Below are positions 42,732-43,357 of a stretch of DNA of 64,000 nt, in pieces. Position numbers and translations under genes: made by a program. The stretch spans positions 1,905,001-1,969,000 of the forward strand of contig JAINUG010000031.1 of NCBI GenBank assembly GCA_029706075.1, read 5' to 3'. The notes beneath the pieces are model-generated. The model saw only the letters and a program-made list of their open reading frames with translations, did no database searches and was not told the origin of the DNA. How positions within the stretch are numbered: position 1 is the stretch's first letter; the number at the start of each line of letters is the position of its first letter. The DNA is from Aldrovandia affinis (lineage: Eukaryota > Chordata > Actinopteri > Notacanthiformes > Halosauridae).

Positions 42732-42853
42732 AATGCAGTCCGGCATAATCTTAGTCTTCACAAGTGTTTTGTTCGAGTAGAAAACGTAAAGGGGGCGGTA
42801 TGGACTGTGGATGAACTAGAGTTCCAAAAGAGAAGGCCACAAAAGATCAGTGG
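42732..42853 (+). CDS. foxp1: FOXP1 exon, canonical forkhead recognition-helix exon (18a type)
   Basis: 122 bases, phase 0 in and phase 2 out ('AGTGG|gtacgt'). It encodes [40 protein letters not shown] and G. This is helix 3 with the DNA-contacting N, R and H of N-A-V-R-H-N, then wing 1 and the basic 'KRRPQK' tail (nuclear localisation). Human FOXP1 differs only by 'DEVEFQ' (memory). It joins 43962 to read '...QKISG-SPALVKNMQ'. It is an alternative to the exon at 43188. If both were included the frame would shift, because this exon leaves in phase 2 and the other must be entered in phase 0. Confidence 0.97.
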
Positions 42854-43187
42854 GTACGTCCGCCACGTTTGACCTCTGGAGCGCTGCTTGCTGTCAGAAA
42901 AGGGTGATGGATGACGAGCGGCTCCATTTCATTGTCTGTGTGCCACAGTGCCCCAAAAGCCCCCCGCTTGCTTCCGTGTGCATCTCATGCTCTTAGCCTC
43001 CCTGCTCTCGACGATGCAGAATAACTCACATTGGCTCATGCTTATTTGCATTTTTGCCCTCACCCCCTCCCCGTGACCGTCTGTCTCTCCGTCCGTCCAT
43101 CCCTCCCTCCCTGTGTTTGCCTGTCTACTCTCCTGTCCCCCCCATCACTGCATCTGCGCCTGGCTGCCCCGCTTGCCCCGTGCCCAG
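42854..43187. other. Intron between the two alternative forkhead exons, 334 bp
   Basis: Begins gtacgt and ends in a C-rich tract and 'cgtgcccag'. The last ~37 bases hold five YGCY tetramers. The polypyrimidine tract is C-rich, weaker than the T-rich one of the canonical exon. Confidence 0.9.
43157..43184 (+). promoter_or_regulatory. YGCY cluster at the 3' splice site of the alternative exon
   Basis: Five YGCY tetramers occur within 28 bases directly upstream of the acceptor at 43187: CGCC, TGCC, CGCT, TGCC and TGCC. YGCY is the binding motif of MBNL splicing factors, and in mammals MBNL1/2 repress the FOXP1-ES exon. Regulation by Mbnl here is inferred from the motif only. Confidence 0.45.
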
Positions 43188-43357
43188 GGTGCCATTCGCA
43201 CCAACCTTTCCCTACATAACTGCTTTGTGAGAGTAGAGGATGAGTTTGGGTCCTACTGGACCGTCGATGACGAAGAGTTTAAGCACGGCCGCCACGTACA
43301 GAGGGGCCGCCCTCGGAAGTACAGCGCAGATGAGAACTTTGACGAGCTGCTTGTACA
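43188..43357 (+). CDS. foxp1: FOXP1 alternative forkhead exon (FOXP1-ES / exon 18b type)
   Basis: 170 bases, phase 0 in and phase 2 out, from 'gtgcccag' to 'GTACA|gtaagc'. It encodes GAIRTNLSLHNCFVRVEDEF, GSYWTVDDEEFKHGRHVQRG and 'RPRKYSADENFDELLVQ'. It aligns with the canonical exon but changes the recognition helix: N-A-V-R-H becomes G-A-I-R-T, and the end is 16 residues longer. The arginine contact and the W-T-V-D core are kept. The match to the human exon 18b used in FOXP1-ES (embryonic stem cell isoform) is strong from memory ('RGRPRKY', 'DENFDEL'). Intact frame, good splice sites and conserved sequence argue that it is functional. It joins 43962 in frame (CA plus G makes Gln). Confidence 0.93.

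Follow-up and report, generated by a model that had tools for sequence, protein, structure and literature searches.

Mammalian FOXP1-ES, in which exon 18b is used in place of exon 18 (16b and 16 in mouse), was reportedly described by Gabut et al. in 2011, and Santos et al. are said to have argued in the same year that the FoxP1-type exon pair is older than vertebrates. According to the accessible passages of PMC11701043 and PMC7725506, FOXP1-ES arises by a swap of mutually exclusive exons, and the former source states that the human protein favours CGATACAA over GTAAACAA sites. MBNL proteins repress the mammalian alternative exon, as stated in excerpts of PMC8189919, PMC4978528 and PMC13044900. 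For Drosophila FoxP, the primers printed in the available portion of PMC4070984 encode TWKNAI, KNAIRTN and WMVDDN in the case of isoform B, and AATWKN and AVWTVD in the case of isoform A, the forward primers being placed across exon 6 to 8 (B) and exon 6 to 7 (A). The same portion, citing Santos et al. 2011, has this fly isoform type occurring in FoxP1 and not in FoxP2, and a passage of PMC6219247 with the same citation takes FoxP to be most like vertebrate FoxP1 by its bilaterian alternative splice forms. Another tandem pair, OGDH exons 4a/4b, combines a long tract of pyrimidines with branch points that are distant, as per the accessible text of PMC7969005.

We analysed a window of 64,000 nucleotides from Aldrovandia affinis (contig JAINUG010000031.1, positions 1,905,001 to 1,969,000), for which an original prediction had proposed two tandem, mutually exclusive forkhead exons in a foxp1 gene. 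The explanation that fits best overall, and in which we have very high confidence, is that the window holds foxp1 with a conserved mutually exclusive pair, the one known as 18/18b in human and 16/16b in mouse. The exons given below, the intron between the pair and the segments described within them are on the + strand, and positions are those of the window.

Assignment of the locus to foxp1

Judged by its sequence, the locus is foxp1. The forkhead exon upstream of the pair differs from the solved FOXP1 (2kiu) in only 1 of 34 residues, against 4 differences from FOXP4, 6 from FOXP2 and 7 from FOXP3 over the same residues, all of these being counts made by eye on the alignments. The C-terminal end of foxp1 is also intact in the window, which supports the assignment to FOXP1, and the last coding exon (47442-47586, reading (M)...GNDDMQ and then a stop at 47584-47586) closes the frame. 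FoxP coding stretches follow each other in order upstream of the forkhead exons, near 27.1, 34.6, 36.1 and 40.5 kb. A search with motifs that we take to be those of the FoxP zinc finger and leucine zipper placed such stretches in the same gene near 27108, 34571 and 36111, after four chance matches on the - strand were discarded. It may be noted that a CTCCCA-type repeat at 26988-27118 runs into the zinc-finger exon, whose start is ambiguous; the repeat may belong to the pyrimidine tract of the intron or may encode His-Ser repeated in frame. When the two spliced forms were searched with the forkhead model PF00250 (cutoff 27), the canonical form scored 80.4 bits and the alternative form 69.7 bits. 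Against solved structures the spliced alternative form gave a tie between FOXP4 (6xat) and FOXP1 (2kiu) at 112 bits each, with FOXP3 and FOXP2 as the next matches.

Structure and reading frame of the exon pair

The shared upstream forkhead exon (41255-41356, 102 nt) is left in phase 0 with the protein end ...RRNAATWK. The canonical exon, of the exon 18 type (42732-42853, 122 nt), is preceded by AG, has the donor GTACGT and ends its protein in ...KIS. After an intron of 334 nt (42854-43187) follows the alternative exon of the 18b or FOXP1-ES type (43188-43357, 170 nt), again with AG before it, with the donor GTAAGC and the protein GAIRTNLSLHNCF...RGRPRKYSADENFDELLV. Each of the two exons is entered in phase 0 and leaves 2 nt over. 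On in silico splicing, the canonical form is open through 41255-41356 and the two shared downstream exons, 43962-44031 (protein SPALVKNMQTSLGYGPTLSAAFQ) and 44272-44438 (protein ...PLPA), and reads ...KISGSPALVKNM..., and the alternative form is open across the same shared exons and reads ...ENFDELLVQSPALVKNM.... If both exons are included, a stop is reached 13 residues past KISG, and if both are skipped, the stop falls inside 44272-44438. The coordinates, splice dinucleotides, lengths of 122 and 170 nt, spacing of 334 nt and phases of the original prediction were all verified on the sequence, and its claim that the frame is broken by using both exons or neither was borne out by the stops found in both combinations.

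These data lead us to propose the following course of events. Choosing 42732-42853 would give the usual forkhead domain, while choosing 43188-43357 would replace the second half of the forkhead and add 16 residues, and the wrong combinations, with both exons or with neither, would run into early stops. The protein of the alternative form would probably prefer other DNA sites, by analogy with what is reported for human FOXP1-ES, and the alternative exon is presumably expressed in this animal. It may also act in pluripotent cells, as in the mammalian switch to which the original prediction likened the pair.

Splice signals and exon choice

The two acceptors differ in base composition, with 25 T in the last 40 nt for the canonical exon against 8 T and 19 C for the alternative exon. 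The alternative acceptor is preceded by a zone of 166 nt (43020-43185) that contains no AG, a length reached by just 2 of the 3805 AG-to-AG gaps scanned in the window. At five other foxp1 acceptors examined, the AG-free stretch is 30 to 53 nt, and at the canonical acceptors of the paralogues (four loci) it is 20 to 53 nt. Pyrimidines make up 0.75 of the zone, a value within the range found before other foxp1 exons (0.53 to 0.81), and only the length of the zone is unusual. The one further stretch of the window that goes 166 nt or more without an AG is a CT-rich microsatellite at 28030-28202, where 166 of 173 bases are C or T.

Candidates for a branch point of the yTnAy type were found at 43028, 43038, 43044 and 43062, that is, 126-160 nt from the alternative exon, and the relaxed TNA pattern gave further candidates at 43024, 43076 and 43147 (164, 112 and 41 nt from the exon, respectively). 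As a control, yTnAy was looked for before other exons; there is none before exon 41255, and for exons 42732 and 43962 it is found at 11 and 13 nt only. Since the motif thus yields no plausible branch point before 3 of the 5 other exons, and since one TNA candidate lies at 41 nt, a distant branch point of the alternative exon is put forward here only as a suggestion.

The distance between the canonical donor and the yTnAy candidates is 174-208 nt, and for the remaining candidates it is at least 170 nt. Steric exclusion by a branch point near the upstream donor was considered as a mechanism and is not borne out by these candidates, all being 170 nt or more from the canonical donor; with such distances in a 334-nt intron no steric block is expected. 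The same spacing leaves room to join both exons and speaks for a reading in which the pair is real but owes its exclusivity chiefly to the decay of transcripts in the wrong frame, and not to a regulated exon choice. This reading is helped by the GT-AG sites on both exons and by the early stops in the wrong combinations, but the mammalian orthologue is reported to be MBNL-regulated in the passages available from the three MBNL sources cited above, and we consider decay as the main cause to be unlikely, though deserving of some weight. Under the explanation that we prefer, a conserved pair whose members are selected by regulation, the choice would most likely be made by RNA-binding proteins, presumably splicing factors, at the alternative acceptor, which is C-rich and may have a distant branch point, the canonical acceptor having a T-rich tract.

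We also searched for motifs that could mark such regulation. The MBNL-type motif YGCY is present 8 times in the last 150 nt before the alternative exon, against 8.8 expected from dinucleotide shuffles, and 18 times over the whole 334-nt intron, against 16.1 expected on the same basis. Compared with the window, YGCY is dense before the alternative exon, since of 2554 stretches of 150 nt only 0.7% attain the value found there. Clustering of MBNL motifs was rejected as evidence for or against a possible MBNL control, because the counts ahead of the alternative exon equal those of the dinucleotide shuffles. A wider test of splicing motifs comprised 11 regions and 5 motif groups (55 tests), of which the lowest values (0.005, 0.033 and 0.035) were not taken as significant; the value of 0.005 was obtained with GC tetramers, grouped ad hoc, over the 150 nt that follow the canonical exon, and that of 0.033 with the same group over the whole intron. 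A TGCATG, which we take to be an RBFOX-type motif, is present at 42589, some 140 nt ahead of the canonical exon, and is not significant against shuffles (0.138). The 334-nt intron gave a z value of 0.44 for its RNA fold, 64 of 100 shuffles folding at least equally well, and a search of the window against Rfam at the gathering thresholds gave 0 matches.

Divergence and age of the two exons

In a local tblastn search with a database of five sequences, the alternative exon matched the canonical exon with an E value of 1.9e-11. The two have 20 of 32 ungapped residues in common, yet the third codon position is identical in only 10 of the 32, and an identical codon is used for just 7 of those 20 residues. 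Therefore, the pair most probably arose by an old coding duplication.

A guide sequence for human exon 18b is printed in the accessible part of PMC8189919, and it matches the window at 43237-43256 with 18 of 20 bases, the next-best place on either strand of the 64-kb window having 14 of 20. The guide encodes DEFGSF, where the alternative exon has DEFGSY and the canonical exon NVKGAV. With the printed primers of fly isoform B, the alternative exon has in common a signature of I, T and D residues (TWK-NAIRTN and W-x-VDD), and the primer positions (exon 6 to 7 or 8) are consistent with a junction after TWK, as in the window. It may be noted that the human comparison covers the 20 printed bases and the fly comparison the printed primers. 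On the match with the guide, the alternative exon can be identified as the counterpart of mammalian exon 18b, and the identity with FOXP1-ES given in the original prediction is supported. The human and fly likenesses together place the origin of the pair before the vertebrates, which agrees with the earlier suggestion of an origin before mammals. This age has already been argued in print and is hence not a new inference of ours.

The acceptor of the alternative exon, which has 8 T over the last 40 nt where the canonical one has 25, would fit with this exon being instead a decayed or unused relic whose frame is open by chance, but the GT-AG sites, the matching phase, the frame open over 170 nt and the retention of 18 of 20 bases of the human 18b guide, when third positions between the two exons agree at just 10 of 32, make this very improbable. 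Still less credible is a recent lineage-specific tandem duplication with likeness to 18b by convergence, for which it may be said that the alternative exon was found at the locus of the window only, but against which stand those same third positions, the printed stretch, in which 5 of 6 residues agree with human 18b and 1 of 6 with the canonical exon beside it, and the signature of fly isoform B that the exon also has, as far as the printed primers go.

By title and abstract, none of the matches listed in our literature search described the alternative exon in fish, a search that covered few subscription journals. Among the matches listed, fish literature naming FOXP1-ES amounts to two cases, both of which mean a predicted binding site, and the available part of a zebrafish foxp1b paper makes no mention of splicing.

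Copies in the genome

The canonical exon as query against the 1.22-Gb genome gave six places, namely five canonical exons (at the locus of the window and at four other FoxP-type loci) and the alternative exon of the window. With the alternative exon as query we obtained again six places, its own and those of the five canonical exons already named, the latter with 56 to 62% identity. From both searches, one alternative exon and five FoxP-type loci were found. The upstream exon as query gave eight places, four of them FoxP-like (window included) and four weaker forkheads, with no match on the contig of L009. Going by the downstream exon and by the residues that follow WTVDE, we tentatively take L007 (G000:C2133:2623000-2632900) and L008 (G000:C1446:4120800-4130700), both located by the canonical exon search, to be foxp2 copies, L009 to be foxp4 and L010 to be foxp3. 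Among the paralogues the intron was delimited in the two foxp2-like loci, where it is 616 and 823 nt long, without N and without the alternative exon. That the paralogues retain a remnant of this exon was considered and rejected, as local tblastn with it up to an E value of 2 gave only canonical exons in all four loci; when the gene strand was scanned for motifs, a single unconvincing SAVRS turned up in L010. There are 400 N in L009 and 75 N in L007.

In this genome we found two foxp2-like loci, as against a single foxp1 with a forkhead exon. The zebrafish set, as listed in the accessible portion of the literature, consists of foxp1a, foxp1b, foxp2 and foxp4, and thus the retained FoxP copies seem to differ between the two fishes.

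Recognition helix and basic tail

The change of the recognition helix from NAVRH to GAIRT, as originally predicted, is read directly from the alternative exon, where N becomes G, H becomes T and R is kept. The wing is altered as well, and the protein becomes longer by 16 residues. In FOXP2 the corresponding N and H presumably contact DNA bases, and the R is the site of a known speech-disorder change; a literature search for the DNA-contact residues of FOXP2 found none. As for the added part, it does hold the basic RGRPRKY that had been predicted, but it does not end there as had been claimed, since an acidic SADENFDELLV follows before the donor. The tail sequence VQRGRPRKYS resembles an AT-hook, its RGRPRK being encoded at 43302-43319. 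The Pfam AT_hook model scores it at 14.0 bits within the spliced protein, and at 17.2 bits when the tail is cut out, so that the cutoff of 17.4 is not reached and the tail is only a lead. The word AT-hook is absent among the matches listed in one narrow literature search.

A joint reading can be formed from these parts, whereby a new recognition helix acts with a minor-groove arm of RGRPRK and inclusion is obtained via a distant branch point and a 166-nt AG-free platform for repressors. We regard this combination as speculative and rather doubtful. No description of it, with helix swap, AT-hook arm and distant branch point together, was met in the one AT-hook search and in two main texts on exclusive exons (PMC5740500 and PMC7969005), neither of which names FOXP1. 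The AT-hook-like tail and the possible distant branch point may be the parts that deserve follow-up.

Comparison with known systems

The exon pair is real and ancient, and is already known both as a kind and in its age. Its interest here is that of a clean instance with intact frame, the sole copy found among five FoxP-type loci, which would mean that the swap predates the divergence of fish and mammals and has been retained ever since. With this locus, the role of the switch can also be studied in contexts other than mammalian stem cells.

Among the systems compared, exons 4a/4b of OGDH, going by the available text of PMC7969005, are alike in being a tandem pair with a long AG-free stretch ahead of the second exon. 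The human OGDH branch points, however, lie 25-41 nt from the donor, which is under the proposed steric limit, whereas the candidates in foxp1 here lie at 174-208 nt. The isoforms A and B of Drosophila FoxP (exon 7 and exon 8), as known from the excerpted source, are alike in the AIRT and VDD signature and in a junction that fits TWK. Isoform B has retained an N at the first of the changed positions, at which the alternative exon of the window carries G, and in the fly gene nothing follows exon 8, whereas both exons here join common downstream exons. Within the printed portions of the mammalian sources, FOXP1 18/18b (16/16b in mouse) has in common with our locus the gene, an exchange of the corresponding forkhead exon that keeps the frame, and 18 of the 20 printed bases of 18b.
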